This document shows positions 3,437-41,830 of a DNA stretch of 64,000 nucleotides, piece by piece; within the stretch, counting starts at the first letter, position 1, and every line of letters starts with the position of its first letter. The position numbers and the translations under genes were made by a program. A model generated the notes under the pieces. It was not told the origin of the DNA. It saw nothing but the letters and a program-made list of their open reading frames with translations, and did not search any database. This DNA is from a virus, in the IMG/VR virus record IMGVR_UViG_3300028844_006574, positions 1 through 64,000 of that record; one strand, written 5' to 3'.

Positions 3437-3465
3437 TTGAATTATTTAGTCAAGTAGTATACAAT
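3437..3465 (+). promoter_or_regulatory. Sigma70-like promoter of queC, leaderless architecture
   Basis: TTGAAT (3437-3442), 17-nt spacer, TACAAT (3460-3465). The ATG of queC begins 7 nt after the last base of the -10 box, where transcription would be expected to start. It overlaps the late promoter of the divergent gene. Confidence 0.65.
3443..3450 (-). promoter_or_regulatory. Late-promoter-like box ACTAAATA
   Basis: On the minus strand, ACTAAATA ends 8 nt before the ATG of paralogue B (3434). It is one base-substituted form of the xATAAATA box seen before many late genes in this window. Confidence 0.5.
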
Positions 3466-3471
3466 TAACAT

Positions 3472-4182
3472 ATGAGAAAATGTGTTATTCCCGTGAGCGG
3501 TGGTTTAGATTCAAGTACTATACTGTATTATGTAAAGAAACAACGCCCGGAGTTCGAAGAAATTCATACACTCACGTTTGATTATGGTCAGAGACACAAA
3601 CGTGAGATCGACAGTGCAACAGACATAATACTGGGCCAGGTGGCTAGCCATCGTGTGACAAATGTACAGTTCATAAAAGAACTGTTCTCGACAAGCTCAC
3701 TAACGAATGATGATATAGATGTGGCTAAAACAGCTGATGTGTTAGGTGACCCACAAACTGTCAATTATGTACCCAACAGAAACATGATATTGTTGAGTAT
3801 CTGCACCGGTTATGCAGAGAGTATCGGAGCAGACACTGTATTCCATGGATCTGCGCAAGTGGATAGTGAAGCTGGTTACTGGGATGGTACACCCGAATTT
3901 TTAAAATGTTTAAACAACTTGAACGAACTGAACAGAAGAGACCGCGTCACAGTTGAGGCACCATTAATAGACAAATCAAAACAACAGATTATCAAAATGG
4001 GTCTAGAATGCGGTCTAGATTTTAGTAAAACATGGACTTGTTACGAGGGCGGTGAAGAGGCGTGTGGCAAATGCACTGCGTGCAGCAGCCGCATAAAGGG
4101 TTTTATTGACAATAAAAAACAAGACCCAGTCCCATACTCGATATACATACCCTGGGAACAATTTGGGTGTGACAAAATATAA
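3472..4182 (+). CDS. queC: QueC, 7-cyano-7-deazaguanine (preQ0) synthase
   Basis: 236 residues, usual length for QueC. The PP-loop ATP-pyrophosphatase motif SGGLDSS is at residues 9-15, followed by TFDYGQRHKRE and YVPNRNM, and the zinc site is formed by C190, C198, C201 and C204 (CYEGGEEACGKCTAC). QueC converts 7-carboxy-7-deazaguanine to preQ0 using ATP and ammonia. In phages preQ0 or its derivatives can replace guanine in DNA to evade restriction; a role in host tRNA is the alternative. The stop codon shares a base with the ATG of the next gene (TAATG), a class II amidotransferase, so the two are probably translationally coupled. No QueD, QueE, FolE or DpdA/TGT is in this window; they may lie elsewhere in the phage or in the host. 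Confidence 0.95.
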   Translation: MRKCVIPVSGGLDSSTILYYVKKQRPEFEEIHTLTFDYGQRHKREIDSATDIILGQVASHRVTNVQFIKELFSTSSLTNDDIDVAKTADVLGDPQTVNYVPNRNMILLSICTGYAESIGADTVFHGSAQVDSEAGYWDGTPEFLKCLNNLNELNRRDRVTVEAPLIDKSKQQIIKMGLECGLDFSKTWTCYEGGEEACGKCTACSSRIKGFIDNKKQDPVPYSIYIPWEQFGCDKI

Positions 4183-6893: not shown

Positions 6894-6922
6894 TTTACAG
6901 AAAATAATTACATAAATACTAG
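6894..6922 (+). promoter_or_regulatory. Weak sigma70-like promoter of the DHH gene
   Basis: TTTACA (6894-6899), 17-nt spacer, TACTAG (6917-6922), then 5 nt to the ATG at 6928. It has the same geometry as the stronger promoters of gp32 and primase but poorer boxes. Confidence 0.4.
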
Positions 6923-6927
6923 CTAAC

Positions 6928-7821
6928 ATGAAAAATATAGTGTTTACAGATGCAGACCTAGACGGTAGCATGAGCTATCTATTACTAAAATGGGCACTCA
7001 AAAGCACATTACCATACAAAGTAACAACAGTCACCAAATTTCATGACGATTTCACTGCATGGAAAAGAAAAAACAAAACCGAAGATTATAACAAGATCAT
7101 AATTTTAGACTTAGATGTTTCACAGTCACAAGAATTGATCGATTTACCTAACGTTGTTATTGTAGATCATCACAAAACACACGTACCAAACCGAGAAAAA
7201 TATAAACATGCCAAAGCTATTGTACAGGAGTACCCTAGTTGTGCTAAATTGTTGTACAAAATATATAAACATAAGCTTGACGATGTTATAGATAATAATC
7301 AAAAGAAACTGTTATTACTCGTAGATGACTATGATAGTTGGACACACAAATACCCACAGAGTAAGAAACTAAACTATCTGTTCTGGAACTATCAAGGAGA
7401 TCGTTTAGAAAAATTTCTCAAAGATTTTCAATTCGGTTTCAAAAGCTTCAACGACCAGCAAACTAAAACTATAGATTTCTATGAACGTAAGCTCGAAAAA
7501 ACAGTGAACAATCTAGCTTATCACCAAGCACTTGTAGCTATACAAGGTAAAAAACGTAAATGTATAAGTACTTTCGCTAGTACATTGATTAGTGATATAG
7601 GTAACTACTTGGTTGATGAGATGAGCGCCGATATAGGGTTCGTGATCAACCCCGAGACAAACAGAGTGAGTGTAAGAAAAAATAAAGAATGTACAGTAGA
7701 TGTAGGAAAACTAGCTCAAGTGTTGTTGGATGGAGGAGGCCATGAAGCTGCGTCTGGTGGTGTATGTACAGAAAAATTTTTAGAGCTGAGTAAATTATTC
7801 AAACCTATACATCATGTATAA
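6928..7821 (+). CDS. DHH-family phosphoesterase (RecJ/NrnA-like)
   Basis: 297 residues. Motif I TDADLDG is at residues 6-12, IILDLDVS follows, motif III VDHHKTH lies near 79-85, and the C-terminal DHHA1 signature DGGGHEAASGG lies near 271-281. The family hydrolyses short oligonucleotides, single-stranded DNA or cyclic-dinucleotide products with Mn2+. Here it may recycle nucleotides or process replication intermediates, because it sits between helicase and gp32. A cyclic-dinucleotide or oligonucleotide signalling-degradation (counter-defence) role is possible, but substrate cannot be read from the motifs. The next gene overlaps its end by 8 nt. Confidence 0.88.
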   Translation: MKNIVFTDADLDGSMSYLLLKWALKSTLPYKVTTVTKFHDDFTAWKRKNKTEDYNKIIILDLDVSQSQELIDLPNVVIVDHHKTHVPNREKYKHAKAIVQEYPSCAKLLYKIYKHKLDDVIDNNQKKLLLLVDDYDSWTHKYPQSKKLNYLFWNYQGDRLEKFLKDFQFGFKSFNDQQTKTIDFYERKLEKTVNNLAYHQALVAIQGKKRKCISTFASTLISDIGNYLVDEMSADIGFVINPETNRVSVRKNKECTVDVGKLAQVLLDGGGHEAASGGVCTEKFLELSKLFKPIHHV

Positions 7822-8101
7822 TTATGAAGAAAATCCAATCGAGTCTTTATATAGAGAAGACCTTGAACACACGTTTTATAGTTTCTGTAGCTTGATCGCT
7901 ATGAGTAAAAACAAAAAAATGAACATAGCTAGTATATTTATAGAAGTGTTACAAGATAAAAATTTACTTGACATTTATAAGGAACTATGTGATCATAATA
8001 CGAAATATGAAGCTGTCAGAAGCTTCTTAACAATTGAACCGAGTTTACAAAAGAGCAAATACATTAAAAGATACATAAACAAAAACCTTGAAACTACCTA
8101 A
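7814..8101 (+). CDS. Small unknown protein upstream of gp32
   Basis: 95 residues, mostly predicted helix, Lys/Glu-rich, with no recognisable motif. It starts inside the end of the DHH gene, and the gp32 promoter -35 box lies within its last codons. In T4 the helicase loader gp59 and the late coactivator gp33 lie near gene 32, but this protein is too short for gp59 and lacks the C-terminal clamp-binding end of gp33. I therefore leave it unassigned. Confidence 0.7.
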   Translation: MYNYEENPIESLYREDLEHTFYSFCSLIAMSKNKKMNIASIFIEVLQDKNLLDIYKELCDHNTKYEAVRSFLTIEPSLQKSKYIKRYINKNLETT

Positions 8102-8116
8102 AAAATATATTATAAT
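8088..8116 (+). promoter_or_regulatory. Strong sigma70-like promoter of gene 32, leaderless architecture
   Basis: TTGAAA (8088-8093), exactly 17 nt, perfect TATAAT (8111-8116), then 6 nt to the ATG at 8123. The expected transcription start coincides with the start codon, so the mRNA would have no leader or Shine-Dalgarno sequence. Confidence 0.8.
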
Positions 8117-8122
8117 TAAATC

Positions 8123-9001
8123 ATGAGCGCATTCACCACAAGTATGTTTGATTCGATTAAAGAATCATTATCAAAAGCCCCTACATCTGGATTCAAAGAT
8201 GTACTTAAATTCAAACCTGGAACCAGTTGTGAGTTGAGATTATTACCCAATGTAAAAAAACCAGCTGAAACATTTTATCATTACTATACCTACGGTTGGG
8301 AAAGCTTTGCGACCGGACAATATATAAATGTCGTGTCACCACAGACTGTAGGTGAACGATGCCCAGTGAGTGAAGCACGTTACAAAATGAGACAAGGTTC
8401 CGGTGAAGAACAAGAAAAGTCTAGCAAAGTGATGAGACGAGAACAATGGTTAGTAAACACTTATGTTATCAATCATTCAGAAGAGTCTGAAAACAATGAC
8501 TCTGTAAAAATATTACGATACGGTAAACAACTTCACAAGATAATAACAGATGCTATTGAAGGTGAAGATGCTGATCAGTTCGGTGCTCGAGTGTTTGATC
8601 TTTCAGAAAACGGAAGCAGCTTCCGTGTCAGATGTGATAAACAAGGTGATTTTCCTACCTATGTCGCTAGTAAATTCTTAATTCCGGCTGCGGTGCCAGG
8701 TCTTAACGAGAGTGATGTGAGTAAAATATATGATCAAGCCATCACACTCAACGATGTATTTCCAGTAAAATCATATGATGAATTACAAGAAGTTGTGAAT
8801 GAACACTTGTATTGTCAGACTACTACTAGCGTTGTTGTGGATAACGTACTGGAAAGTCCATCAAGTGACCCGGATCTAAATGAGGATATTCCGATGGATT
8901 TTGACGCTCCATCCGCTAAAAAAGAGACTAAAAAAGAGGTCAAGAAAGAAGCTGATATTGATATCCCAGACGATCTATTAGAAGGTCTAGAAGATTTATA
9001 A
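8123..9001 (+). CDS. 32: Single-stranded DNA-binding protein, gp32-like
   Basis: 292 residues (T4: 301). The N-terminus (MSAFTTSMFDSIKESLSK) is the self-association arm. The OB-fold core contains TYGWES, CPVSEARY and KILRYGKQLHKII. After Pro/Ser-rich and Lys-rich stretches it ends in an acidic tail (DIDIPDDLLEGLEDL), the typical gp32 docking site for replication partners. It coats single-stranded DNA and coordinates UvsX, primase and helicase. The T4 zinc site (CPxC plus Cys and His) appears degraded: only one Cys is present at the equivalent CPVSEAR position. It has its own strong promoter, as expected for a highly expressed protein. The stop overlaps the next ATG by one base (TAATG). Confidence 0.9.
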   Translation: MSAFTTSMFDSIKESLSKAPTSGFKDVLKFKPGTSCELRLLPNVKKPAETFYHYYTYGWESFATGQYINVVSPQTVGERCPVSEARYKMRQGSGEEQEKSSKVMRREQWLVNTYVINHSEESENNDSVKILRYGKQLHKIITDAIEGEDADQFGARVFDLSENGSSFRVRCDKQGDFPTYVASKFLIPAAVPGLNESDVSKIYDQAITLNDVFPVKSYDELQEVVNEHLYCQTTTSVVVDNVLESPSSDPDLNEDIPMDFDAPSAKKETKKEVKKEADIDIPDDLLEGLEDL

Positions 9002-9615
9002 TGGCTGAAGAAGTTCAAAAAATACAAGCGGAACAACCTAAACTACATGAACCCCCACCACCTGGTACCGGTTCATCAGTTGATGGTCAGCAATACACAC
9101 CCGCTAGGCAAGATTTGCGACCACAGGACGTGGGTTTGATTGAAAACTTCATTGGTGGTATATACGGAGAAGCTAAGCAAATAGAAAACAACAACATTGG
9201 TGACAATAAATTCACTAAGGCTGTAAAAATGGATGCAGCTAAAGAAATAGTAAATGTTAGAAATATCGCTCGTGGTACGCAACCTCCACCACCGCAACCG
9301 GTACCACAACAACCCCCACCCGTACTGCCAGTTCAACAACCCATGCAACAAGCAATACAAGGTCATGTACCTACAAACACAAGCGATTCACTAATTCTCA
9401 AGCATGAAATTGACCAACTAAAAGACCAAGTAAAAGATATCAAGAGAGTTTATGATGAATTTGTAAAATTGAAGACCGTAAAAGGTAAATGGGTTATTAA
9501 ACATGATTCAAAAACACAAAGCGCACCTACAATCTCAAAAACATGGAACACACTTACTAAATTGTTGAAAAACAAAACAAAATCCATTACAATTGAGTAT
9601 GTAGAAGATGAGTAA
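9001..9615 (+). CDS. Unknown Pro-rich coiled-coil protein between gp32 and the clamp
   Basis: 204 residues. The N-terminus is Pro/Gln-rich, a helical segment follows (DVGLIENFIGGIYGEAKQ), then a second Pro/Gln stretch (near 98-120: PPPPQPVPQQPPP). Next comes a predicted coiled coil (HEIDQLKDQVKDIKRVYDEF) and a basic C-terminus. It starts within the gp32 stop codon and overlaps the clamp gene start by 8 nt, so it is translationally coupled to both. Position and linker architecture suggest a replisome adaptor, but this is inference; no family is recognised. Confidence 0.75.
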   Translation: MAEEVQKIQAEQPKLHEPPPPGTGSSVDGQQYTPARQDLRPQDVGLIENFIGGIYGEAKQIENNNIGDNKFTKAVKMDAAKEIVNVRNIARGTQPPPPQPVPQQPPPVLPVQQPMQQAIQGHVPTNTSDSLILKHEIDQLKDQVKDIKRVYDEFVKLKTVKGKWVIKHDSKTQSAPTISKTWNTLTKLLKNKTKSITIEYVEDE

Positions 9616-10339
9616 CAAATTAAAAATACAAAAAGGTACAAGTTTTACTAACAACTTCCTAAACACTATAGGTAAGGTTGTTGAAGACTGTATCGTAAAC
9701 ATAACACCTAATCAATTGAATTCATTAGGTTCAACATCTGACGGTACATTAATACAATATGTTAGATTTAAAAATGAAAATGAGTTTGAAAAAACATTAA
9801 ACGTCCCGGATGTAAAACGTTTACATAAGATAATCAGTTGTATTAGTTCAGAGAGTTTTGAAATACAAACTGAAGAAAATTGTTTATCCTATAAATCACC
9901 GGAAACCAGGTTCAAATTCTATTTGTTAGATGATGGTATATTGAGCCCACCACCTATAAGTGTTGACAAGATAAAAAGCTTGGAATATGACTCTGAATTC
10001 ACGTTATCACATAGTAAATTACTAGAATTAGTCAAAGGAAGTACATTTTCTAATGAATCTGAAAAACTATACATATATACATCTGAAGGTTATATATATG
10101 GGGAATTAACAGACAGAGAGAAACCTAACATGGATAGTTTTTGTATCAGACTGACAGACGAACCACAAGATAATACATTTCAACCTCTAGCATTCAATTT
10201 CGAAAACATAAGAATCATTAGCAGTACTAGGTGCGAACAAATTAAATTTAGAGTTAACACTCAAATGAGCGTGATCCGAGTTGATATTGCCCTAGAAGAC
10301 TGCTATATAACATATATAGTATCAGCACTAATAAAATAA
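9608..10339 (+). CDS. 45: Probable sliding clamp, gp45-like
   Basis: 243 residues (T4 gp45: 228). The sequence is diverged, but the order of strands fits a two-domain PCNA-like clamp: DGTLIQYVRF, DVKRLHKIISCI, EENCLSYKSPE.RFKFYLLDDG, a DKIKSLEYDSEFTLSHSKLLEL linker-like segment, and a terminal DCYITYIVSALIK strand resembling the gp45 end (ANYVVAL). gp45 tethers polymerase and also activates late transcription with gp33/gp55. Position directly after gp32 and before the primase cluster supports the call; a structure comparison would settle it. Confidence 0.7.
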   Translation: MSNKLKIQKGTSFTNNFLNTIGKVVEDCIVNITPNQLNSLGSTSDGTLIQYVRFKNENEFEKTLNVPDVKRLHKIISCISSESFEIQTEENCLSYKSPETRFKFYLLDDGILSPPPISVDKIKSLEYDSEFTLSHSKLLELVKGSTFSNESEKLYIYTSEGYIYGELTDREKPNMDSFCIRLTDEPQDNTFQPLAFNFENIRIISSTRCEQIKFRVNTQMSVIRVDIALEDCYITYIVSALIK

Positions 10340-10740
10340 TGGTCGCAACAAAAAACAATATATACACCCCTAGTTATTTCATGAAACGTATGAAAGATAA
10401 TGGTTATGGAATTTGGAAAATTTTTGACAAATATGGTCCACATGACAGTAGATATTGGACCATGTTGGTAGACCCGGGTGGTTACTCCGTTTGGGTAACC
10501 TGTTACTTGAATCGAGAAGAGCTGAAAGATGTATGTTTTGAAATAAATGATGGAGGGGTGAGGATACCTAGAAATTTTATAATAAAGACTGCAAGTGTAC
10601 AAACCTTTATAAACAATTTGTTACAGTTTGGTATTGAAAATAGTGAGACCTTTGATTCTTCGCTCATAGACATAAATAAGTACAATGACAGAGGACAAGC
10701 CAACCCCGCCCAAGAGGTCTTACAAGAAAAAACGAGTTAA
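10339..10740 (+). CDS. Unknown 133-residue protein downstream of the clamp
   Basis: The ATG overlaps the clamp stop by one base (TAATG). The N-terminal part is aromatic-rich (YFMKRMKDNGYGIWKIF, RYWTMLVDPGGYSVWVTCYL) and looks like a compact alpha/beta domain; the last 30 residues are polar and probably flexible. It does not resemble T4 RegA or gp62, the genes that accompany gp45 in T4. The overlap with the next gene is long (56 nt), so one of the two starts may be further downstream. Function unknown. Confidence 0.7.
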   Translation: MVATKNNIYTPSYFMKRMKDNGYGIWKIFDKYGPHDSRYWTMLVDPGGYSVWVTCYLNREELKDVCFEINDGGVRIPRNFIIKTASVQTFINNLLQFGIENSETFDSSLIDINKYNDRGQANPAQEVLQEKTS

Positions 10741-11044
10741 GAAACCTCAAGAGCCTACCTTGTCTGAAGAACTAGATCCGTTGTTTGAAGATGCACTGAC
10801 AAAATTTCTCAAGACACACGCTGGTAAAAAAAATAAATCACTAAAAAATATAAAATCATTGGAGCATCTACTCTCGCAATTCCTTAACAGTTTTATATTG
10901 ATAGGGTATGCACAGGACACTAGAGAGTTTGTGAGTTTGGTCAATGCACGTGATGAACAGTCGGCCGACTCCTTGAGCGCTGCTCTAAACAAATTTATAT
11001 TAAACAACGTAAACAACGGACCTAAATACCCACCAATGTTATAA
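10685..11044 (+). CDS. Small unknown protein with a basic N-terminal tail
   Basis: 119 residues. The first 20 are Pro/Lys/Arg-rich (PPKRSYKKKRVKKPQ), suggesting nucleic-acid contact or disorder; the rest is helical (LSEELDPLFEDALTKFLK, LEHLLSQFLNSFILIGYAQ). It overlaps the preceding gene by 56 nt, so a TTG start near 10760, giving only the helical part, is an alternative. No family recognised. It ends shortly before the promoter of the sugar-reductase gene. Confidence 0.6.
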   Translation: MTEDKPTPPKRSYKKKRVKKPQEPTLSEELDPLFEDALTKFLKTHAGKKNKSLKNIKSLEHLLSQFLNSFILIGYAQDTREFVSLVNARDEQSADSLSAALNKFILNNVNNGPKYPPML

Positions 11045-11050
11045 TACTAG

Positions 11051-11079
11051 TTGAAAATCTTCTAGTAGTATAATACTAT
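11051..11079 (+). promoter_or_regulatory. Sigma70-like promoter of the RmlD-like gene
   Basis: TTGAAA (11051-11056), 17-nt spacer, TACTAT (11074-11079), then 5 nt to the ATG at 11085. It has the same near-leaderless geometry as the gp32 promoter. Confidence 0.65.
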
Positions 11080-11084
11080 TACAT

Positions 11085-12038
11085 ATGGGTAAATTTAATA
11101 CAAACGTAGCGGTGTTCGGCACCGGTTTTGTTGGTACCGCATTACAAAAATTAAAGAAATTACATAACGTTGTTACATTTAATAAAAAGGAACATGAATA
11201 TCATGAACCTGATAAACTATTAAAATTATTAAATGATATTCGATGGAAACCGGATATTGTAATCAATGCATGTGGTTACACAGGTAGACCAAACGTAGAT
11301 GCATGTGAAGACGATAAAGCAAAATGCTGGGAACTGAATGTCAACTTACCTGTCACAATGGCTACTATGTGTAAAGCCCTTGATATCCCCTACATACACA
11401 TAAGTAGCGGGTGTATATACACGGGTTATGATAAAGAGTATAATGAACGAGACGAACCTAATTTTGGCCTAGTGTCTGAAGAGAGTAGCTGGTATAGTAA
11501 AACAAAACATGCAGCTGAAATCGCATTGAATAAAACCGATGCTCATATACTACGCATCCGGATGCCGTTTTGTGATCAAAATCATGAAAGAAACTTCCTA
11601 AACAAGGTACTTAAATACGATCAATTGATCGATTTCCCTAATTCCATGACCAGAATCGAAGACCTAGTCGTGTTTATTGACAAATTTATCACAAAAATTA
11701 AAAATGAATACAACACACTACCATGGAACCGATCAGTCAAACCGGGTATATATAATGTATGTAACCCGGGAGCTGTATCCATCAAGAACTGTGTCAAACT
11801 TTTTAAGAAAAACGGTATTGCTAACAGTAACTGGTCGTTTGTTGATATAAAACAGCTCGATTTGAAAGCCAATCGGTCAAACTGTGTGTTGAATTGCCAA
11901 AAAATTAAAAACCTAGACCTGGAACTACCACCTGTTGAAGAAAGTTTAGCTCAAAGTGTACAAAATCTTTGTAAATCACTATTATTCAAAACCGGTTTAC
12001 AAAGCCCTCAAGGTGGTCTCGAATGGCAGATAAAATAA
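11085..12038 (+). CDS. RmlD-like NAD(P)-dependent sugar epimerase/reductase (extended SDR)
   Basis: 317 residues. The Rossmann nucleotide-binding motif GTGFVG is at residues 12-17, NACGYTGRPNVDACE corresponds to the RmlD NAxAYTxVDxAE segment, ISSGCIYTG follows, and the catalytic Tyr-x3-Lys is YSKTK near residue 136. The family reduces or epimerises 4-keto-6-deoxy nucleotide sugars (dTDP-rhamnose type). In the phage this would supply an activated sugar to the glycosyltransferases in this window. TFNKKEHEY after the Rossmann motif may contribute cofactor specificity. It has its own promoter, and the next gene overlaps by 16 nt. Confidence 0.85.
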   Translation: MGKFNTNVAVFGTGFVGTALQKLKKLHNVVTFNKKEHEYHEPDKLLKLLNDIRWKPDIVINACGYTGRPNVDACEDDKAKCWELNVNLPVTMATMCKALDIPYIHISSGCIYTGYDKEYNERDEPNFGLVSEESSWYSKTKHAAEIALNKTDAHILRIRMPFCDQNHERNFLNKVLKYDQLIDFPNSMTRIEDLVVFIDKFITKIKNEYNTLPWNRSVKPGIYNVCNPGAVSIKNCVKLFKKNGIANSNWSFVDIKQLDLKANRSNCVLNCQKIKNLDLELPPVEESLAQSVQNLCKSLLFKTGLQSPQGGLEWQIK

Positions 12039-12286
12039 ATATCCAACCTGGTCAATTGTACGCTGTAACAACAGGTACGTACAAAGGATCCAACATGGTT
12101 GTTATAGACAGTGATAAGGAACATGTCAATTTTTTAGATCTACCAGACATGGTACCTAGAAACATACCGTATCTTGATGTACAAGAGGGGATCACAAACC
12201 AAATTATAGAGTTGCTAGAAACACTACCACAAGATATAATGAATACATGTGTAAAACAATATGAAAAAAACATTAGTAATAGATAG
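12023..12286 (+). CDS. Small unknown protein, possible SH3/KOW-like fold
   Basis: 87 residues. The start PGQLYAVTTGTYKGSNMVVIDSD has the alternating strand pattern and conserved-looking Gly of a small beta barrel (KOW/SH3 type), followed by a helix (NQIIELLETLPQDIMNTCVKQ). It overlaps the sugar-reductase gene by 16 nt and the exonuclease gene by 26 nt, a compact arrangement usual in this block. Function unknown; the beta-barrel suggestion is by eye only. Confidence 0.6.
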   Translation: MADKINIQPGQLYAVTTGTYKGSNMVVIDSDKEHVNFLDLPDMVPRNIPYLDVQEGITNQIIELLETLPQDIMNTCVKQYEKNISNR

Positions 12287-13169
12287 TAACAATTTGTTGT
12301 ATAGAATATTCTACATGAACCGCGCCAGGGGTACAGACGTGAATATGTTAAATGTATTTTTGACCTGTGTCAAATCTTATGCCAACTTGACAGGGGGTGT
12401 AGATAATATAATCGCTGTTTGGGACAGTAGATTGTGTAGAGGACAACCAAATTTTAGGCGTGTAGCCAAAGAAGCAGATTATAAAGGTAATAGAGACAAA
12501 ACCGGATTAGAAGAAGCACATGTATTGGATGAGCAGATACAGTCCGCAATTGAATGCTTAGGGGGTTTGAACATGTTTCCGTACCGAATGGAAGCAGATG
12601 ATGTAATAGCTTGGTTAACACACAATGTAACCGATCAAGAATTTACTATTGTCACAGTTGACAAAGACATGTATCAATTGATCAATGAAAATGTTTGTGT
12701 ATATACCCCTATCAAAAAAATGATGGTGAATAAAAACAATTTCGCGCAAGCCGCTGGTGTGAATCAAGATCAATTCTTGCAATACAAAGCGCTTGTAGGT
12801 GACAAATCTGACAACATACCTGGTATACCACGTGTAGGTCATAAAACAGCGCACAAAATACTCAAAACCGGTATAGAACAAACATTAACACCGGAACATC
12901 TAGAGATATACAAGAAAAACATTGAATTGATGGACCTATCATACGGTTACACAGTACATGAAGGAGAAACTGACAGTTATCAAGAACAGTACTCTAAAAT
13001 AACCGAATGTAAAGCAGATAAATCCAAGCTCAAACAAATACTTATACATAATGCAGTGTATAACATAGCAAACAATATAGATAATTGGTTTGAACTATTT
13101 GAATCTGGTGGAAATAATGTTCCAAACGTTGTAAACCTGATTAAATCATTAAATATTTCTAACACATGA
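12261..13169 (+). CDS. rnh: RNase H / 5'-3' exonuclease of the FEN family
   Basis: 302 residues (T4 RNase H: 305). Metal-binding acidic motifs are in family order: VIDSNNLLYR (D8), EADDVIAW (near 113-120), TVDKDMYQL (near 133-141), and the helix-hairpin-helix segment VGDKSDNIPGIPRVGHKTA (near 176-194). It removes RNA primers and adjacent DNA from Okazaki fragments, working with gp32 and the clamp. All catalytic acidic clusters expected for the family appear present. It overlaps the genes on both sides (26 nt and 4 nt). Confidence 0.93.
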   Translation: MKKTLVIDSNNLLYRIFYMNRARGTDVNMLNVFLTCVKSYANLTGGVDNIIAVWDSRLCRGQPNFRRVAKEADYKGNRDKTGLEEAHVLDEQIQSAIECLGGLNMFPYRMEADDVIAWLTHNVTDQEFTIVTVDKDMYQLINENVCVYTPIKKMMVNKNNFAQAAGVNQDQFLQYKALVGDKSDNIPGIPRVGHKTAHKILKTGIEQTLTPEHLEIYKKNIELMDLSYGYTVHEGETDSYQEQYSKITECKADKSKLKQILIHNAVYNIANNIDNWFELFESGGNNVPNVVNLIKSLNISNT

Positions 13170-13363
13170 ACAAAAAAGTACAGTATAATGATAAAGTAGA
13201 ACCTAGAATTATAAATTCACCCTATGATGGTACACCCGTAAAACCTAAGCTGATAACAAAACAGATGAACGGTATGCAAATAACAGAAGCACATTGGTAC
13301 TGCCCCACCACCGGAAAGTTTATAAGAAAAGGCACTGTCGAAATCAAAGAAATAAAAAAATAA
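13166..13363 (+). CDS. Small basic unknown protein
   Basis: 65 residues, Lys-rich, with a strand-rich pattern (AHWYCPTTGKFIRKGTVEIKEIKK). Its ATG overlaps the stop of the exonuclease by four bases (ATGA). It has a single cysteine, so it is not a zinc ribbon. It ends just before the primase promoter. Function unknown. Confidence 0.65.
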   Translation: MNKKVQYNDKVEPRIINSPYDGTPVKPKLITKQMNGMQITEAHWYCPTTGKFIRKGTVEIKEIKK

Positions 13364-13368
13364 CATCA

Positions 13369-13397
13369 TTGAAATGTAATATAAGGTATCTTATAAT
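13369..13397 (+). promoter_or_regulatory. Strong sigma70-like promoter of primase, leaderless architecture
   Basis: TTGAAA (13369-13374), 17-nt spacer, perfect TATAAT (13392-13397), then 6 nt to the ATG at 13404. Box sequence and all spacings are identical to the gene 32 promoter. Confidence 0.8.
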
Positions 13398-13403
13398 ATA
13401 ATC

Positions 13404-14447
13404 ATGGTTATATTACCTGATCAGTATGTTATAGAAAAGTTTTGTCAATATGGTGGTTACCCCAAGTATAACAAACGTGCAAATGCATGGATGGCTGGTT
13501 GTCCTATATGTAGAGAAGGAACTAGTTGGGGTAAAAAACGTAGATTATACTACAAATTAGATAAAAATTATATTTTCTGCTTCAATTGCGGGTGGAAAAG
13601 TAATTCGTTGAATTATATAAAACATGTCACCGGCATGACGTTCAGTGAAATCACCGCCGAATCTGGTGAATACACTACCGATAATGTTATTGAACAATTA
13701 GAACAAGACAAACCAACAAGACATTTAGAAACTCCACCGTTACCGGACGATTCTATCAATTTGTTTGAGCAAAACCAAATTAGATACTGGTTGACCACCG
13801 GAACACCGGCCGAGAAAAAAGTTGTTTCAGACACGGTGTCACTTTTGAAACGTAGAAACCTGTACAACGCTATCAACAAACCAAAAACTTTGTGGCTGAG
13901 CCTGACAGATTACGTACATAAGAATAGAATAACAATACCATTCTACAATACTGACAACAAGATCGTCTTCTATCAAACAAGATCAGTTTACGCAAAGGAT
14001 AACCCTAAATATCTGAGCAAAGCGGGTGGTGGTAAAACCATATTCAATATAAATCAAGTAGACCCAAATTTAAACAGTGTGTTTTTGTTTGAAGGCCCGA
14101 TAGATAGCTGCTTTGTAAAAAATGGTCTGGCTGTTGCAGGTATAACAAATGGGCCCGGTGAAGATCTAACCAATTTACAAACCAAACAACTAGAAGATCT
14201 ACGCCTGTATCAAAAAATATGGGTACTAGACTCTCAATGGTTGGATAAAACTAGTCTAGACAAGACTAGACTGTTAGTGGATCAGGGACATACAGTGTTC
14301 ATTTGGCCGGAAAATTTAGGTAAACAGTACAAAGACTTGAACGACCTGTGCATAGATATAGACAAACCCGGGATCGGTTACAAATTTATAGAAAAAAATA
14401 GTTTCACCGGGTTAAAAGCGAAGCTATTACTCAAAAATATAAATTAG
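13404..14447 (+). CDS. 61: DNA primase, gp61-like
   Basis: 347 residues (T4 gp61: 342). The N-terminal zinc-binding domain has C33, C36, C59 and C62 (CPIC and CFNCGW). The central TOPRIM core contains FLFEGPIDSCFV near residues 225-236, followed by VAGITNGPGE and the acidic KIWVLDSQWLD strand. Primase makes RNA primers for lagging-strand synthesis in complex with the gp41 helicase. It has its own strong promoter. The stop codon overlaps the stop of the convergent gene by four bases (TTAG). Confidence 0.93.
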   Translation: MVILPDQYVIEKFCQYGGYPKYNKRANAWMAGCPICREGTSWGKKRRLYYKLDKNYIFCFNCGWKSNSLNYIKHVTGMTFSEITAESGEYTTDNVIEQLEQDKPTRHLETPPLPDDSINLFEQNQIRYWLTTGTPAEKKVVSDTVSLLKRRNLYNAINKPKTLWLSLTDYVHKNRITIPFYNTDNKIVFYQTRSVYAKDNPKYLSKAGGGKTIFNINQVDPNLNSVFLFEGPIDSCFVKNGLAVAGITNGPGEDLTNLQTKQLEDLRLYQKIWVLDSQWLDKTSLDKTRLLVDQGHTVFIWPENLGKQYKDLNDLCIDIDKPGIGYKFIEKNSFTGLKAKLLLKNIN

Positions 14448-14890: not shown

Positions 14891-14898
14891 TATTTATG
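14891..14898 (-). promoter_or_regulatory. Late-promoter-like CATAAATA
   Basis: Minus-strand CATAAATA ends 9 nt before the ATG at 14881. It forms a back-to-back pair with the plus-strand TATAAATA at 14905. Confidence 0.6.
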
Positions 14899-14904: not shown

Positions 14905-14912
14905 TATAAATA
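14905..14912 (+). promoter_or_regulatory. Late promoter TATAAATA
   Basis: Perfect T4-type late box, 7 nt before the ATG at 14920, back to back with the minus-strand box at 14891. Confidence 0.7.
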
Positions 14913-15326: not shown

Positions 15327-15334
15327 CATAAATA
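15327..15334 (+). promoter_or_regulatory. Late promoter CATAAATA
   Basis: The box ends 5 nt before the GTG start at 15340. The constant spacing supports choosing GTG over the out-of-frame ATGs just upstream. Confidence 0.65.
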
Positions 15335-15339
15335 ATGAT

Positions 15340-15792
15340 GTGTTTGAAGTATTTAAATCATTATTAATTGTAACAACCATTTCTGCTGGTATAGCTGGTG
15401 TAGGTTATACCACGCTCGGAGCTGATTTTATAGGTATATTTGTAATATCTATAGTGATACAACTTGCATTAGGTTGGTTTGTAAGATCATACAATGAATC
15501 ATCAGAACGTAGATTACTACTTGAACAACAATCAAAACTAATCACACAAATAGACCAAGAAGCTAATGAAGCCCCATGCGCATACTGCGGAACAGTTAAC
15601 TTAATACCAATCCTCCCCGGATCAAATAATGACTTTGATTGTATAGAGTGCGAAAAACCGAACAGTGTGTATGTAAACATAACTGTAGCTCAAAAAACAG
15701 TACCAATAGACGCGCAACCATACGAAATAACAAATTTTAACGAGAATTTACAATCTGCGAAAGATAAAGTATTATCTAATGAGCCATCTTGA
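15340..15792 (+). CDS. Membrane-anchored zinc-ribbon protein, unknown function
   Basis: 150 residues from a GTG start. Two hydrophobic segments (about residues 7-25, LLIVTTISAGIAGVGY, and 29-47, FIGIFVISIVIQLALGWFV) form a probable helical hairpin. A charged region (SSERRLLLEQQSKL) and a four-cysteine ribbon (CAYC near 84-87; CIEC near 104-107) follow. The first segment could instead act as a signal anchor. This architecture could place a small zinc domain on the inner face of the host membrane. A role in superinfection immunity or lysis timing is speculation. It overlaps the next gene by 14 nt. Confidence 0.7.
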   Translation: MFEVFKSLLIVTTISAGIAGVGYTTLGADFIGIFVISIVIQLALGWFVRSYNESSERRLLLEQQSKLITQIDQEANEAPCAYCGTVNLIPILPGSNNDFDCIECEKPNSVYVNITVAQKTVPIDAQPYEITNFNENLQSAKDKVLSNEPS

Positions 15793-18034: not shown

Positions 18035-18042
18035 TATTTATA
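18035..18042 (-). promoter_or_regulatory. Late promoter TATAAATA
   Basis: Perfect late box on the minus strand, overlapping the last codons of gp17, 5 nt before the GTG at 18029. Confidence 0.7.
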
Positions 18043-19758: not shown

Positions 19759-19766
19759 CATAAATA
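19759..19766 (+). promoter_or_regulatory. Late promoter CATAAATA
   Basis: Ends 5 nt before the ATG at 19772. Confidence 0.65.
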
Positions 19767-19771
19767 ACGGT

Positions 19772-20614
19772 ATGACACGTGTAAACACTTTGAATGAAAT
19801 AGCGGACATCTACTTTGCCGGTAAGAAAATAGTAGAAGAGAAAGCAGACAACGTTGTAGGTAAGCAAGCTGCAGGCCAGGAGTTAGAAGATGAGAAAAAG
19901 GCATCTAAAAAACCTGCCAAAGGAACTGGACCAGAGGCTGCTGATAATTATGATAAAAAAGTCAATGAAGCTGGTGGTACCGGAGCTCGTGATGAAAAAA
20001 ATCAATACTCCGCCGGGAAAACTTCAAACGAGAGTATAAATAATCAAGATATGAGCAAGAAAAAAAGCATTTTTGATAAACTTTATGAAGAAGTTCTCGG
20101 AGGAGACGATGATGAACTCGAGATGGGCGCCGGTTTTGACGCATTCGGAGGAGACGACGAAGGTGGTGAAGACGATGAATTTGGATCTGATGAAGTGACT
20201 CTCAGTCTACCAAGAGACTTAGCTGAGAAATTACATGAAGTACTCATGGACCAGCTCGACGGTGGAGAAGATGACATAGAAGACATCGAAGACACAGAAG
20301 ATATGGAAGAACTTGACGAGTATAGTTCAGACGAAGAAGACGAAGATGAAGAGGTGATGCAAGAAGCACCAGAACATCAAGAGCTCGGAGATGCTGGACC
20401 CGGAGGTTCTGATACAGACAAAGGAAGTTTAAAAGGTAAAAACAACAAAGTAGGTGGCAAAACCGGAGTCACAATGAAAGGTCATGGTCAAGGTAAACTC
20501 AAAGGAGGAAAATCCGAACCATCACCACTTGGTGACAAAGTAGGTACATTGACCGGAAAAGACAACAAAGTCGGTGGTCGTATAACTGGTAAAGACCAAG
20601 ACGCATTTGCTTAA
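19772..20614 (+). CDS. Highly acidic scaffold-like late protein
   Basis: 280 residues. An N-terminal helical part (TRVNTLNEIADIYFAGKKIVEE) is followed by a Lys/Glu/Gly spacer and IFDKLYEEVLGG. A very acidic segment follows (about residues 108-205, with runs of Asp/Glu), broken by EVTLSLPRDLAEKLHEVLMDQL. The Gly/Lys-rich tail repeats GKxNKVGGKT and GKDNKVGGRI. The charge pattern is typical of scaffold or core proteins of phage heads, but no gp22/gp68 motif is recognised. It is followed by one of the two clear intrinsic terminators in the window, so it is a single-gene late unit, probably abundant. Confidence 0.75.
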   Translation: MTRVNTLNEIADIYFAGKKIVEEKADNVVGKQAAGQELEDEKKASKKPAKGTGPEAADNYDKKVNEAGGTGARDEKNQYSAGKTSNESINNQDMSKKKSIFDKLYEEVLGGDDDELEMGAGFDAFGGDDEGGEDDEFGSDEVTLSLPRDLAEKLHEVLMDQLDGGEDDIEDIEDTEDMEELDEYSSDEEDEDEEVMQEAPEHQELGDAGPGGSDTDKGSLKGKNNKVGGKTGVTMKGHGQGKLKGGKSEPSPLGDKVGTLTGKDNKVGGRITGKDQDAFA

Positions 20615-22219: not shown

Positions 22220-22227
22220 ACTAAATA
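22220..22227 (+). promoter_or_regulatory. Late-promoter-like ACTAAATA of the sheath gene
   Basis: Lies 20 nt before the sheath ATG, leaving room for a ribosome binding site, unlike most other late boxes here. Confidence 0.55.
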
Positions 22228-22230
22228 CTT

Positions 22231-22238
22231 AGGAAGGA
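22231..22238 (+). promoter_or_regulatory. Strong Shine-Dalgarno site of the sheath gene
   Basis: AGGAAGGA ends 9 nt before the ATG at 22248. It is one of only two strong sites of this kind that I noticed. Confidence 0.8.
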
Positions 22239-22247
22239 AAATTTATT

Positions 22248-24941
22248 ATGGCAAGAACAATTCAATCCCCTGGTGTAGAAATTAATGAGATCGATCTTAG
22301 CTCACGCACATCGTTCCCAATCGGTACAAATATCCTTATTCAAGGATTCTCCTCAAACGGACCAACCGATGAAACTTTGATCGTTAGCACTTTCTCAGAA
22401 TTCGAGACAATATATGGTACCCCCACAAACGCAGCTGAAAGGTATTTTTACCACACAGTAAAATCGACTTTTAACAGTCCTGCTAATGTGTTGGTCAATC
22501 GCTTACCTTACGGTAATCAAAAAGGTGAAGGTTTCACCGACGAGCTATTCAGTGCTCTTTGCTTACCTGTTAGCGGTGACGATCATTGGGCCAATCCATT
22601 GTCCGGAAGCTTTTTAACAGACAAAAGCGCCCTCACAGGTGCGGACCAACAAGCATCCGCCGGTGATGGTGACGGTTACAATGCAGACGGTACAGCTTCT
22701 AACAAGTTAGGTAGCATCTCTGACAGTACAAAATTAATGTTTGGTACACCGGTTCGTATGGATTTGTTACCAGAGGAGTACCAAGCGGTCAAAAATGGAG
22801 AAATTTCATTTGAAGAAAATTGCTTAGTACCACTGAAGGATTCAGACGGTACAGTCGATTACAGTGACCCAATCTTCGACAATGTAGGTGCTGAACAACA
22901 AAACGCATGTAAGTTTGATGATCTACCAGCATATTATAGTGCTGATGTACCTGGTATCGACATTGACAATTATGACGTTAACGGAAAACGTAAGCTTCGT
23001 GCTTTCGTTAACCGTGCCAAGTATGCTGGAATGTTCATCGTGAACAAAGCTCAAACAACTATTAACACATATTTTGAAGGCTATTATTTAGCGTTTGGAG
23101 ATAACATGCAGTTCGCTATCAACGACGGTACAGACAATGAAACCAACTTTTTTGATGCTATTGAAGGTTGTAAAACATTCGGTATTCAAGGAACATACTT
23201 CGATGTACCAGTTGTACGCCAAAACTTCAAAACAACAGCTCATACAGTGACTGGTGCTGGAGGAAGCATGAGTGAAGTGTTTGAAAACACACCAAACTAT
23301 GATATTGCTAATCCTGAGAATCGTGACGTTATCGGTCTTGGAGTTTTCAAGCTCAAGAAAAGTATTTACGCGACAGACACAACCATGTTGGACTTCGGTC
23401 TTGAAGAAGGACACATTGGTAGTATGGACGCTTACAAGCAAACAGCTAATATTACTGGCGGTAAGCCCAAGAGCTTCTACATTGAAACAGTCGATGCTAA
23501 CAGCTCTGTCCTCACAATCTTCGCTAACAAGTTTATATCGGAAAACACCGGTACATTCTTGACAGACACAGAGAACCCATTGGTCCCCAACACCACTATT
23601 TACTTTCACCCTGAAGCTCAAAAGTATGCTTGGGCCACCGGAAGTTATCAAGAAGAAGTTCCTGCCAGCTCTAAAAAGAGCATCGGTAGTGTGAATGCCA
23701 AGATTCAACGTAATTTCGACAAATTGTCCAACCTTGATGAATGGGACATTGACATCACATGTGATGCCGGTCTTACATCCATCTCTACATATGTTAAATA
23801 TATACAAGAGAAGACAAAATATAAAGCTCTAGAAAATTGGTTAGATGCTAACGGTTATAGTTCTTATGATGATGCGATCGCAGATCTAGGTGTACCTAGT
23901 CTCAAAGCAGCTATTGATTCTGGTGCAGCCGCAGTTTCTAGCCTTGCAGATAGTTATCCAGATAACAGAGACATCATTGTTGCATATGATGATGATGCAG
24001 TGATGGACACATCTGGTTTATTCTCCAACACAATCGGAGACAGCACAGGAGCTGCAGCTGATTGGGTAGGTTTACAAGGAGGAAAGACCTGGACTGGTCA
24101 AGAGGTGATCAACAACTGGAAATCTTGTGTAGATTCATTGGTAATTTTTGCTCAAGACCGTAGAAAAGATCACATCACATTGATTGACCCGTTACGTCAC
24201 ATCTTTGTACAAGGTAGAAACGGAGTTGCTTCCAAGGACACAACCAAAAACTTCAGTCAACACATCTTTTACCCAATGAAACATTTGATGGGCGTGGTGA
24301 ACACAAACTACGCTGCAACATATGGTACCTGGGTGAAGCAATACGATGCATCTCAAGACAAAAACTTCTGGGCTCCGCCTAGTGGTGTTGTTGCAGCATC
24401 ATTTGCTACAAATGACTCAGTATATCAACCATGGTTTGCCCCAGCAGGTTTCACCAGAGGCTTGATAACAAATGCGTTAGAAATTGCACTACGACCTAAT
24501 CAAAAGCAACGTGATCAGTTCTACAAAATTGGAGTCAATCCAATCGCGTGGTTCCCAGGTGACGGGTATGTGATATTTGGTCAGAAAACACTGCAAGCCA
24601 AACCTAGTGCGTTCGACAGAATCAATGTACGTCGTATGTTCCTCTACTTGGAAAAAGCAGTTCGTAAGACAGTCAAGTACTTCGTATTTGAACCCAACAC
24701 ATTCGCGACACGTCAGAACATAATCGCGGTTCTCACACCCATATTCCAACGGGTCAAGAGCACGCAAGGTTGTTATGACTACTTGATCGTTTGTGACGAC
24801 AGAAACAACCCACCAGCTGTTATTGATAACAACGAGATGGTGATTGATATATACATCAAACCAGTAAGGTTTGCCGAGTTCATCTTGGTTAACTTTTACG
24901 CAACCAGAACAGATCAAAACTTTGGAGAATTGATCGGGTAA
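22248..24941 (+). CDS. 18: Tail sheath protein, gp18-like
   Basis: 897 residues (T4 gp18: 659), so it carries a large insertion, probably an outward domain in the middle (about residues 100-600). The N-terminus RTIQSPGVEINEIDLS and the C-terminal block are the conserved sheath core: HITLIDPLRHIFVQGRNG, NFWAPPSGVVAA, AGFTRGLITNALEIALRPNQKQRDQFY, GVNPIAWFPGDGYVIFGQKTL and INVRRMFLYLEKAVRK. Sheath subunits surround the tube and contract at infection. Codon use looks more regular than in neighbours and the gene has a strong Shine-Dalgarno site, fitting high expression. Confidence 0.95.
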   Translation: MARTIQSPGVEINEIDLSSRTSFPIGTNILIQGFSSNGPTDETLIVSTFSEFETIYGTPTNAAERYFYHTVKSTFNSPANVLVNRLPYGNQKGEGFTDELFSALCLPVSGDDHWANPLSGSFLTDKSALTGADQQASAGDGDGYNADGTASNKLGSISDSTKLMFGTPVRMDLLPEEYQAVKNGEISFEENCLVPLKDSDGTVDYSDPIFDNVGAEQQNACKFDDLPAYYSADVPGIDIDNYDVNGKRKLRAFVNRAKYAGMFIVNKAQTTINTYFEGYYLAFGDNMQFAINDGTDNETNFFDAIEGCKTFGIQGTYFDVPVVRQNFKTTAHTVTGAGGSMSEVFENTPNYDIANPENRDVIGLGVFKLKKSIYATDTTMLDFGLEEGHIGSMDAYKQTANITGGKPKSFYIETVDANSSVLTIFANKFISENTGTFLTDTENPLVPNTTIYFHPEAQKYAWATGSYQEEVPASSKKSIGSVNAKIQRNFDKLSNLDEWDIDITCDAGLTSISTYVKYIQEKTKYKALENWLDANGYSSYDDAIADLGVPSLKAAIDSGAAAVSSLADSYPDNRDIIVAYDDDAVMDTSGLFSNTIGDSTGAAADWVGLQGGKTWTGQEVINNWKSCVDSLVIFAQDRRKDHITLIDPLRHIFVQGRNGVASKDTTKNFSQHIFYPMKHLMGVVNTNYAATYGTWVKQYDASQDKNFWAPPSGVVAASFATNDSVYQPWFAPAGFTRGLITNALEIALRPNQKQRDQFYKIGVNPIAWFPGDGYVIFGQKTLQAKPSAFDRINVRRMFLYLEKAVRKTVKYFVFEPNTFATRQNIIAVLTPIFQRVKSTQGCYDYLIVCDDRNNPPAVIDNNEMVIDIYIKPVRFAEFILVNFYATRTDQNFGELIG

Positions 24942-24952: not shown

Positions 24953-24960
24953 ACTAAATA
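24953..24960 (+). promoter_or_regulatory. Late-promoter-like ACTAAATA of the tube gene
   Basis: The same variant as before the sheath gene, 19 nt before the ATG at 24980. Confidence 0.55.
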
Positions 24961-24965
24961 ATTTT

Positions 24966-24970
24966 AGGAG
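24966..24970 (+). promoter_or_regulatory. Strong Shine-Dalgarno site of the tube gene
   Basis: AGGAG ends 9 nt before the ATG at 24980. Confidence 0.8.
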
Positions 24971-24979
24971 ATAACAGAT

Positions 24980-25642
24980 ATGGCAGATATAACAGAATAT
25001 GATATTGAACACTTTTACGACAATCTAATTGTCCGGGAAGTAGCTAGACAACACCAATTCCGTGTTACTAGTATCAACACAGGGTTTGGTCAGGACGTAC
25101 CAGCAGGTATTAATGACGTAGAAAACAAGTTGTTGGTAGAGAGTACCACACTTCCCGCAAGAAGCGTGACCAACGTACCGGTCAACTTCCACGGGGTGGA
25201 TTTCAACTTACCAGGTAACGCTAAGTACCCTGGAAGTGATGCATGGAACGTGACGTTTAGATTAGACCAACAGTTGAACATCCGTCGGATATTCGAAGAC
25301 TGGAACACAGCAGTGTTTGACGACCGTACCACCGCAGGTAGTATCGTTCGTAGTAATGACGCTTACATGGTGATCAGTTTGTTCGACCAGATGGGTGCTT
25401 CTCACGCACAATACGTGCTATGGGGTATATATCCTACAGAAGTAGGTTCCCTCGAGTACAACGTTGGCTCAGACGGAGAGATTGTCACATGTCAGGTGAC
25501 CCTTGCGTACCATTATTGGAGCCGTCAAGGACCTACAGCATTCAACAACCGCGCTATTGTTGCCGATCCATCACTTGGTGGTGGAGTACAAAACTCGGCC
25601 AGCACATACGGTGGTAGTGCTAATGCAGAAACCGGACTGTAA
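24980..25642 (+). CDS. 19: Tail tube protein, gp19-like
   Basis: 220 residues (T4 gp19: 163). The fold signature is clear: VNFHGVDFNLPGNAKYPGSDAWNVTFRLDQQLNIRRIFEDWN, then MVISLFDQMG, YVLWGIYPTEVGSLEYNVGSDGEIVTCQVTLAYHYW. The Gly/Ser/Ala-rich C-terminus (about the last 35 residues) is extra. Hexameric rings of this protein form the DNA-conducting tube inside the sheath. It directly follows the sheath gene, as in T4, and is followed by an intrinsic terminator. Confidence 0.85.
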   Translation: MADITEYDIEHFYDNLIVREVARQHQFRVTSINTGFGQDVPAGINDVENKLLVESTTLPARSVTNVPVNFHGVDFNLPGNAKYPGSDAWNVTFRLDQQLNIRRIFEDWNTAVFDDRTTAGSIVRSNDAYMVISLFDQMGASHAQYVLWGIYPTEVGSLEYNVGSDGEIVTCQVTLAYHYWSRQGPTAFNNRAIVADPSLGGGVQNSASTYGGSANAETGL

Positions 25643-25718: not shown

Positions 25719-25726
25719 AATAAATA
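25719..25726 (+). promoter_or_regulatory. Late promoter AATAAATA
   Basis: Ends 5 nt before the GTG start at 25732; the constant spacing supports GTG. Confidence 0.6.
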
Positions 25727-25731
25727 ATTAT

Positions 25732-26571
25732 GTGACGGATCATATCAAATTCCCCCTGAGCTACAGTTCTGACACCAGTGAAGGAGCAAAAAGGTTCAAC
25801 TTGTTTGAAGAGTTGTTGTTACACAACTGGCCAACCGTACTGGCCAACCCCACAATGTGGTACATCACGTTTAGTCATATACCTAAACCTATAAGGAAGT
25901 TAGACAGGGACAATATATTGAACAAAGAAGGACCTAACACATATGATCAGTTACTTTCAAATCAAAAAAACTTGATCACATCCATGACCAACTCAATTGG
26001 ATGTATGTTAGCACACAGCGTGGAGTTACCCACAATACAAGTCCAAGCCGGGAGAGAACAAACACGAATGGGTGGTTATTACTCTGGATTAGTCAGCGAT
26101 ACTGTAACAGATGAAAACACAATCCGTATGGAGTTCAGAGAAACACACAGCTCCATATCAGAATTTATATTTAGACCATGGATAGAAGCAGTAGCTAAAA
26201 ATGGATTGATCGCTAGACCTCCCGGAGATCCAAGAAATGTCAAGTGTCATATAAGAATGTTCCAGATGGGTAAGGTGGGTCCAGGTACAGACCCCGTGGT
26301 ACGTAAAGTGTGGACATTTTATGATTGTGTACCTATAGACCTCTCAACACAACGGTATGCGCATGATGGTACATGGAGCGCACAAGACATGTTTTTTAAT
26401 ACCAATTGGATATACAGCAAATACAACATACAAGACATCAAATTCGAAAACATGAGTGAATTGTACAAAACACACATCGAAAGTCCGCTGAGCCGCCCGG
26501 ACTCTAGTCAGCGTACCAGTGGTAGAGTTGGTGAAAATGACGCACCTGTTGCTAAAATAACAGCCATATAG
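25732..26571 (+). CDS. Tail-tube-like baseplate/tube-junction protein (gp54/gp19-like)
   Basis: 279 residues from a GTG start; the nearby ATG is out of frame and followed at once by a stop. The tube-type core is visible: SVELPTIQVQAGREQTRMGGYY, ENTIRMEFRETHSSISEFIFRPWIEAV, KVWTFYDCVPIDLSTQRYAHDG. Here a strand-helix-W pattern is followed by a 'C.P' strand, as in gp19 and the longer tube initiator gp54 (T4: 320 residues). Position just after the tube terminator and before the hub genes favours a tube-baseplate junction role. This is pattern-based and not certain. Confidence 0.65.
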   Translation: MTDHIKFPLSYSSDTSEGAKRFNLFEELLLHNWPTVLANPTMWYITFSHIPKPIRKLDRDNILNKEGPNTYDQLLSNQKNLITSMTNSIGCMLAHSVELPTIQVQAGREQTRMGGYYSGLVSDTVTDENTIRMEFRETHSSISEFIFRPWIEAVAKNGLIARPPGDPRNVKCHIRMFQMGKVGPGTDPVVRKVWTFYDCVPIDLSTQRYAHDGTWSAQDMFFNTNWIYSKYNIQDIKFENMSELYKTHIESPLSRPDSSQRTSGRVGENDAPVAKITAI

Positions 26572-26577
26572 TAAATA
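26570..26577 (+). promoter_or_regulatory. Late-promoter-like AGTAAATA
   Basis: Ends 5 nt before the ATG at 26583, overlapping the upstream stop codon. Confidence 0.45.
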
Positions 26578-26582
26578 GTTTG

Positions 26583-33617: not shown

Positions 33618-33625
33618 ATTAAATA
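33618..33625 (+). promoter_or_regulatory. Late-promoter-like ATTAAATA
   Basis: Ends 5 nt before the ATG at 33631. Confidence 0.5.
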
Positions 33626-33630
33626 ATTAC

Positions 33631-38786: not shown

Positions 38787-38794
38787 TATTTACA
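38787..38794 (-). promoter_or_regulatory. Late-promoter-like TGTAAATA
   Basis: Minus strand, 5 nt before the ATG at 38781. Confidence 0.45.
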
Positions 38795-38801: not shown

Positions 38802-38830
38802 TTGAAATATCTCAACAAATATAATATAAT
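38802..38830 (+). promoter_or_regulatory. Sigma70-like promoter of the small ORF/dUTPase/gp44 block
   Basis: TTGAAA (38802-38807), 17-nt spacer, perfect TATAAT (38825-38830), then 5 nt to the ATG at 38836. Confidence 0.78.
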
Positions 38831-38835
38831 AAGGT

Positions 38836-41764: not shown

Positions 41765-41772
41765 TATTTATT
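41765..41772 (-). promoter_or_regulatory. Late promoter AATAAATA
   Basis: Minus strand, 8 nt before the ATG at 41756. Confidence 0.55.
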
Positions 41773-41822: not shown

Positions 41823-41830
41823 AATAAATA
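41823..41830 (+). promoter_or_regulatory. Late promoter AATAAATA of the gp25-gp6 unit
   Basis: Ends 5 nt before the ATG at 41836. Confidence 0.6.

Follow-up and report, generated by a model that had tools for sequence, protein, structure and literature searches.

Promoters set against start codons and probable leaderless expression in an uncultured clade of T4-like phages

When the -10 box of a promoter ends only a few nucleotides (nt) before a start codon, is any room left for a leader, and how would the genes of such a phage be translated? The question is raised by the window studied here, bases 1-64000 of the 91,375-base viral record IMGVR_UViG_3300028844_006574, in which sigma70-type promoters directly precede several genes, among them gp32 and the primase gene. 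An earlier note on this DNA had listed six such promoters and proposed that they give rise to leaderless mRNAs, as a regulated mode of translation in early and middle infection. The remaining 27 kilobases (kb) of the record were analysed together with the window, and the whole is called the contig below. Distances are written as N followed by the number of nt between the end of a box and the start codon. The sequence evidence makes it probable that promoters are fused to start codons in an uncultured T4-like clade and that expression is leaderless genome-wide, while high-copy virion proteins retain Shine-Dalgarno (SD) leaders.

The contig is a T4-like phage in the broad sense, as judged by its virion and replication genes and by the TATAAATA-type late promoters before its late genes. 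Recognisable T4-like genes are gp32, a DnaB-type helicase, primase, clamp, clamp loader, sheath, tube, baseplate, terminase and gp23, and the T4-type virion and replication genes, including gp17, gp18 and gp19, show low identity to isolates in PHROG and tblastn comparisons. The main comparison genome was a 222-kb relative, IMGVR_UViG_3300021964_009390, which encodes a homolog of the T4 late sigma factor gp55 (E 2e-18). We also pooled 46 related contigs with gp23 65-88% identical to that of the 91-kb contig; they are interrelated, and their counts are not independent. In a gp23 tree the contig, the 222-kb relative and 21 sampled contigs share one side of a 100/100 branch, while T4, cyanophage, SAR11, OM43 and other references lie on the opposite side on very long branches. 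The contig's gp23 is ~35% identical to Kyanoviridae references (the cyanophage and pelagiphage group) and does not group with the members of that group.

Two promoter types next to start codons

The sigma70-type boxes, positions and spacings reported earlier were as written when read directly. The gp32 promoter (8088..8125, plus strand) reads TTGAAA (8088)-N17-TATAAT-N6-ATG (8123), and the primase promoter (13369..13406, plus) has the same boxes and spacings, from TTGAAA at 13369 to ATG at 13404. Both score 12/12, as does the promoter of the 38836 open reading frame (ORF) upstream of the dUTPase gene (38802..38838, plus; TTGAAA (38802)-N17-TATAAT-N5-ATG). The promoters of queC (3437..3474, plus; TTGAAT (3437)-N17-TACAAT-N6-ATG (3472)) and of an RmlD-like gene (11051..11087, plus; TTGAAA (11051)-N17-TACTAT-N5-ATG (11085)) score 10/12. 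The sixth site did not hold up. The putative DHH promoter, TTTACA (6894)-N17-TACTAG-N5, scores 8/12, too weak for a sigma70 promoter, and a late-type box CATAAATA at 6911-6918 (6911..6930 to the start, plus) at N9 is the better candidate.

Sigma70-like sites scoring at least 9/12 were counted by their distance to called starts. The contig has five at N6 and three at N5, while positions 25-59 nt away average 0.11 each; the 222-kb relative has 19 at N6 (0.31 per position), and the pooled contigs have 26 at N6 and 14 at N5 (0.77 per position). The whole contig has only five perfect TTGAAA-N15-19-TATAAT sites on its forward strand, and 3/5 of them lie at N5-6. As for sigma70-like sites of at least 9/12, none was found at N5-6 in the parts of T4, S-PM2, HTVC008M and RHph that were read, and one at N6 was seen in the region read of C48C1.

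The dominant signal in the contig and the 222-kb relative, however, is the T4 late box (NNTAAATA) with its last base separated from the start codon by exactly 5 nt. Its core TAAATA ends at N5 in 16/96 starts of the contig, compared with 0.067 per position at 30-299 nt and with 0/1764 internal ATGs. The corresponding values for the 222-kb relative are 33/289 starts, 0.252 per position and 2/4380 internal ATGs. In the pooled clade, TAAATA lies at N5 in 102/696 starts, at N6 in 39/696 and at N7 in 17/696. Sorted by class, the starts of the contig comprise 28 with late boxes at N4-10, nine with sigma70-type promoters at N5-8, four with one-mismatch late boxes, 39 coupled and 16 others; these tallies vary with the thresholds.

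Late boxes at N5 on the plus strand (ranges that overlap their own gene include its start codon) are CATAAATA at 15327..15342 (GTG start, gene 15340-15792), 19759..19774 (gene 19772-20614) and 61816..61831 (neck-like gene 61829-63814), AATAAATA at 25719..25734 (GTG start, gene 25732-26571) and 41823..41838 (baseplate wedge gene 41836-42336), AGTAAATA at 26570..26585 (gene 26583-27479) and ATTAAATA at 33618..33633 (gene 33631-34788). The 222-kb relative has the same arrangement at the genes starting at 19772, 33631 and 41836, and keeps both the GTG and the box at 25732. On the minus strand, N5 boxes are TATAAATA at 18035..18042 (GTG start, gene 17682-18029) and TGTAAATA at 38787..38794 (cupin gene 38428-38781). 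Neighbouring spacings are found on the plus strand for TATAAATA at 48115..48122 (N4, gene 48127-48885), 57654..57661 (N6, gene 57668-60010) and 14905..14912 (N7, gene 14920-15318) and for CATAAATA at 60028..60035 (N6, gene 60042-61820), and on the minus strand for ACTAAATA at 3443..3450 (N8, gene 2184-3434), AATAAATA at 41765..41772 (N8, gene 41157-41756) and CATAAATA at 14891..14898 (N9, gene 14444-14881).

Between queC and the divergent gene 2184-3434 (window 3435-3471) the two promoter types meet: reverse-complementing the late box of the latter gene (CTAAATAATTCAA) gives the -35 region of the early queC promoter (TTGAATTATTTAG). The overlap is also kept in the 222-kb relative, so the early and late polymerases would share identical bases.

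Since T4-type late promoters (N5) show the geometry more often than the sigma70-type ones, leaderlessness specific to early and middle genes, as proposed earlier, was rejected; the arrangement looks like a general mode of the phage and not an early/middle switch.

Could TAAATA before these starts be an A/U-rich translational enhancer and no promoter, the real promoters lying upstream of operons? A/U-rich starts favour SD-independent initiation, and many of the boxes stand in short gaps between co-directional genes. However, TAAATA agrees with the T4 late promoter, the 222-kb relative encodes gp55, and the boxes are found largely before virion genes, while replication genes such as gp32 and primase are preceded by full sigma70 promoters at another offset. 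At the sheath and tube genes the same box lies ~20 nt from the start, with an SD after it. We consider an enhancer very improbable.

Start codons as predicted transcription starts

The sigma70 -10 box occupies -12 to -7, so that a spacing of N6 puts +1 on the start codon. The T4 late box occupies -13 to -6 relative to the transcription start (PMC1524935; also PMC2988020), so that N5 does the same. The two promoter types thus peak at different offsets, N5 and N6, each matching a +1 at the start codon. A pyrimidine is expected at -1 if the purine of the start codon is +1, and among late N5 starts it was found at 88% in the contig, 94% in the 222-kb relative and 90% in the pool, compared with 52%, 56% and 64% of the remaining starts; for sigma70 N6 starts the values are 100%, 84% and 81%. 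Starts abutted by a promoter almost never have an SD sequence (0/37, 2/88 and 7/242, in the same order), and other starts have one more often (12/58, 26/201 and 65/454). The N5 start codons are 133 ATG, 18 GTG and no TTG, in agreement with the rule for leaderless starts measured in mycobacteria, where only ATG and GTG serve (PMC4633059). GTG is enriched at N5 in the contig (p 0.007) and the 222-kb relative (p 0.005); in the pool the enrichment is not significant (p 0.2).

These features are consistent with a model in which host RNA polymerase with sigma70 would begin early and middle transcripts 7 nt after TATAAT, and a late polymerase with a gp55-type sigma would begin late transcripts 6 nt after NNTAAATA. 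For both promoter types +1 would fall on, or a few nt from, the A or G of the ATG or GTG, and most promoter-proximal genes would then be translated from leaderless or near-leaderless mRNAs. Genes further downstream in operons may be reached through stop and start codons that overlap or adjoin.

Conservation of the arrangement was assessed in 83 ortholog pairs between the contig and the 222-kb relative (reciprocal best matches). Many late boxes hold their position despite diverged proteins and differing flanking DNA. In the 222-kb relative, queC has TTGAAT-N17-TATAAT-N5-ATG, and the ortholog of the 38836 ORF, with its start aligned, keeps TTGAAA-N17-TATAAT-N6-ATG; no sigma70-type promoter was seen at its RmlD-like ortholog. 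The earlier note had proposed a fixed distance between promoter and start. For primase this stood, the spacing being kept at N5-6 in orthologs L019-L023 and L027. For gp32 it did not, since the spacing is N6 in L008, L009, L015 and L017, N14 in L012-L014, ~N18 in L016 and ~N39 in L010 and L011. Strict leaderlessness at gp32 is not conserved, and the proposed fixed distance holds as a strong tendency, not gene by gene. The suggestion of leaderless mRNAs itself gained support from the N6 peak in the phage and its relatives, the near-absence of SD, the pyrimidine at -1 and the conservation in diverged orthologs, and still appears the best account of these sequences.

Mis-called start codons could produce a similar picture, if the real starts lay downstream and the transcripts had ordinary leaders. 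A few called starts do differ between orthologs, such as that of the 38836 ORF in the 222-kb relative, and yet it is the N5-6 start of this ORF that is conserved. In most ortholog pairs the alignment covers both proteins from residue 1 onward, and the gp32 and primase matches in relatives likewise begin at residue 1. We consider systematic mis-calling very improbable.

Several observations weigh against leaderless expression as the general mode. Some gp32 orthologs have leaders of 8 to ~33 nt with no evident SD, and some late boxes sit at N7-N10, leaving leaders of 1-5 nt. No gp55 gene was found in the 91-kb contig, which is itself incomplete, and the starts in every genome were supplied by one simple home-made gene caller based on codon usage. 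The first two points are also what short-leader, SD-independent initiation would produce, with +1 a few nt upstream of the ATG and A/U-rich leaders of 1-10 nt. The closeness of promoters to start codons would then reflect a host that can dispense with both leader and SD, and not selection for leaderless initiation. Boxes at N7-N10 exist and some are conserved, as at gene 14444(-) with N9, and the gp32 orthologs at N14-N39 have no evident SD. On the other hand, the peaks occupy single positions, N5 for late and N6 for sigma70 promoters, and differ exactly as a +1 at the start codon predicts; conserved SD leaders at gp18, gp19 and gp23 also speak against it. We regard this alternative as unlikely, although it is the strongest of the three, and prefer leaderless initiation.

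Conserved SD leaders and comparison with other phages

Three virion genes depart from the pattern. In the leader of the tail sheath gene gp18 (22220..22250, plus; start 22248), the late box ACTAAATA lies at N20 and is followed by the SD taggaagg (22230-22237); the last 29 nt before the ATG are identical in the 222-kb relative. The leader of the tail tube gene gp19 (24953..24982, plus; start 24980) has the late box GACTAAATA at N19 and the SD ttaggag (24964-24970), both conserved in the 222-kb relative. A late box 19-20 nt upstream is the ordinary T4 layout. The capsid gene gp23, at 66917 in the contig and thus beyond the window, has a leader with the SD aaggag. All three strong-SD leaders are nearly identical in the 222-kb relative. 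Most of the clade members that were examined have an SD-like leader before gp23, and in a majority of the more distant ones (L058-L101) a GGTCGA(C) word also stands ~10-30 nt upstream of the gp23 SD.

In T4, gp23, gp18 and gp19 rank with the most abundant proteins of the virion. Most simply, SD leaders would be kept where output must be highest, and they may be reserved for this purpose in capsid, sheath and tube. Since they are conserved, SD-led initiation would still seem to be of use in the host.

T4 is the textbook model of leadered, SD-dependent phage translation. The contig resembles it in the 8-bp late box (TATAAATA, used in T4 for gp55/gp33/gp45 late transcription), in its clamp gene and in the gp18 and gp19 leaders; the 222-kb relative has a gp55 homolog. 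In the T4 region read, however, late boxes lie mostly at N21-28 and not N5, and 54% of genes have an SD, compared with 12% in the contig. No N5 peak of late boxes was found in what was read of T4, S-PM2, S-SKS1, C48C1, Melnitz, phiM9 and pf16; TAAATA lies mainly at N17-41 in the parts from T4, S-PM2, S-SKS1, Melnitz, pf16 and phiM9. The T4-like myoviruses of cyanobacteria and pelagibacteria (S-PM2, S-SKS1, Mosig, Melnitz and HTVC008M) likewise carry TAAATA upstream of late genes, but in the first four the boxes are mostly at N15-40, with one Mosig gene at N5. The cultured SAR11 phage HTVC008M (L043/L130) has nine genes with TAAATA exactly 5 nt before the ATG, at record positions such as 6280, 7562, 11972, 19456, 31132, 49760 and 75830. 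Its layout is mixed, with an SD at 48% of genes. The gp23 proteins of this group of phages are only distantly related to that of the contig.

The lytic Thermus phages phiYS40 and P23-45, which are unrelated to T4 and use other promoters, make whole classes of middle and late transcripts as leaderless mRNAs. In comparison, the contig has the leaderless geometry at both host sigma70 and T4-type late promoters and keeps SD for capsid, sheath and tube. Bacterial leaderless genes in Actinobacteria and Deinococcus (for mycobacteria, PMC4633059), with a TATAAT-like word ~10 nt before the start, likewise have no SD and only ATG or GTG, but they are chromosomal and depend on host sigma, while the phage clade extends the layout to its own late promoter. 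The Far-T4 phages are also uncultured aquatic T4-like phages (PMC4360716). The Far-T4-type RM378 gave no significant gp23 match and no N5 peak in 100 of its 130 kb, and a term search of the Far-T4 genome paper turned up neither promoters nor leaderless genes. Two other candidate parallels were rejected: the 'phage specific promoters' abutting genes in pf16 resemble ribosome-binding sites on inspection, its TAAATA lying at N29-41, and giant phage AR9 has leaders of 26-491 nt. Nothing relevant on leaderless genes of T4-like phages or cyanophages was found in the open-licence papers searched.

Host clues, neighbouring genes and significance

Promoters of the TAnnTTTG type are typical of Bacteroidetes. 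A Bacteroidetes host has been proposed for Far-T4 phages (PMC7198788, PMC13037479). For the present phage such a host was thought unlikely, as its early promoters are plain TTGAAA/TATAAT and not of the TAnnTTTG type. A comparison of the phage NeuB with genome contigs gave only ~50% matches, mostly in Chloroflexi and Actinobacteria, and was uninformative. Phage-encoded bS21 was considered as a ribosome modifier; none is present in the contig or the 222-kb relative, while HTVC008M has one. No tRNA was found in the 91-kb contig. The 222-kb relative encodes a one-piece transfer-messenger RNA (L030:12277-12660; Rfam RF00023, 90 bits; ARAGORN tag GDIQDAKRGVQEVLHGIFSEQPALLAA) and, away from it, tRNA-Met and tRNA-Thr.

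Among other genes, QueC-like (window 3472-4182) and QueF-like (L006:10615-11541) genes in one phage suggest 7-deazaguanine metabolism. Adjoining DUF444 and SpoVR-like genes (L007:1966-4730) occur in the phage and in the 222-kb relative. The genes at 661-2166(-) and 2184-3434(-) of the window form a tandem paralogous pair with near-identical N-terminal regions and no PHROG match. The cupin gene 38428-38781(-), of the mannose-6-phosphate isomerase C-terminal type, is 87.5% identical to a non-syntenic gene in the 222-kb relative and looks mobile.

More tentatively, and with somewhat less than even confidence, the data may reflect a two-tier initiation code in a large uncultured aquatic T4-like clade, in which leaderless initiation would be the default at host-sigma and gp55 promoters, selected SD leaders would serve the few highest-copy virion proteins, and output would be set by initiation class. 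If this is true, the hosts, or ribosomes modified by the phage, would translate leaderless AUG and GUG mRNAs efficiently throughout infection. Leaderless phage mRNAs are a known phenomenon; the split between leaderless and SD-led genes is unexpected. Across the whole clade, a T4-type late-promoter system has its -10 box set against the start codon. For ~40 genes in a single contig this geometry would predict the transcription start with single-base precision; it could also give a start-annotation rule for metagenomic T4-like phages, and it suggests hosts with a good capacity for translating leaderless mRNAs. It would also turn the conditions under which a phage requires a leader into a testable question, for which the nine N5 genes of HTVC008M are a ready case.

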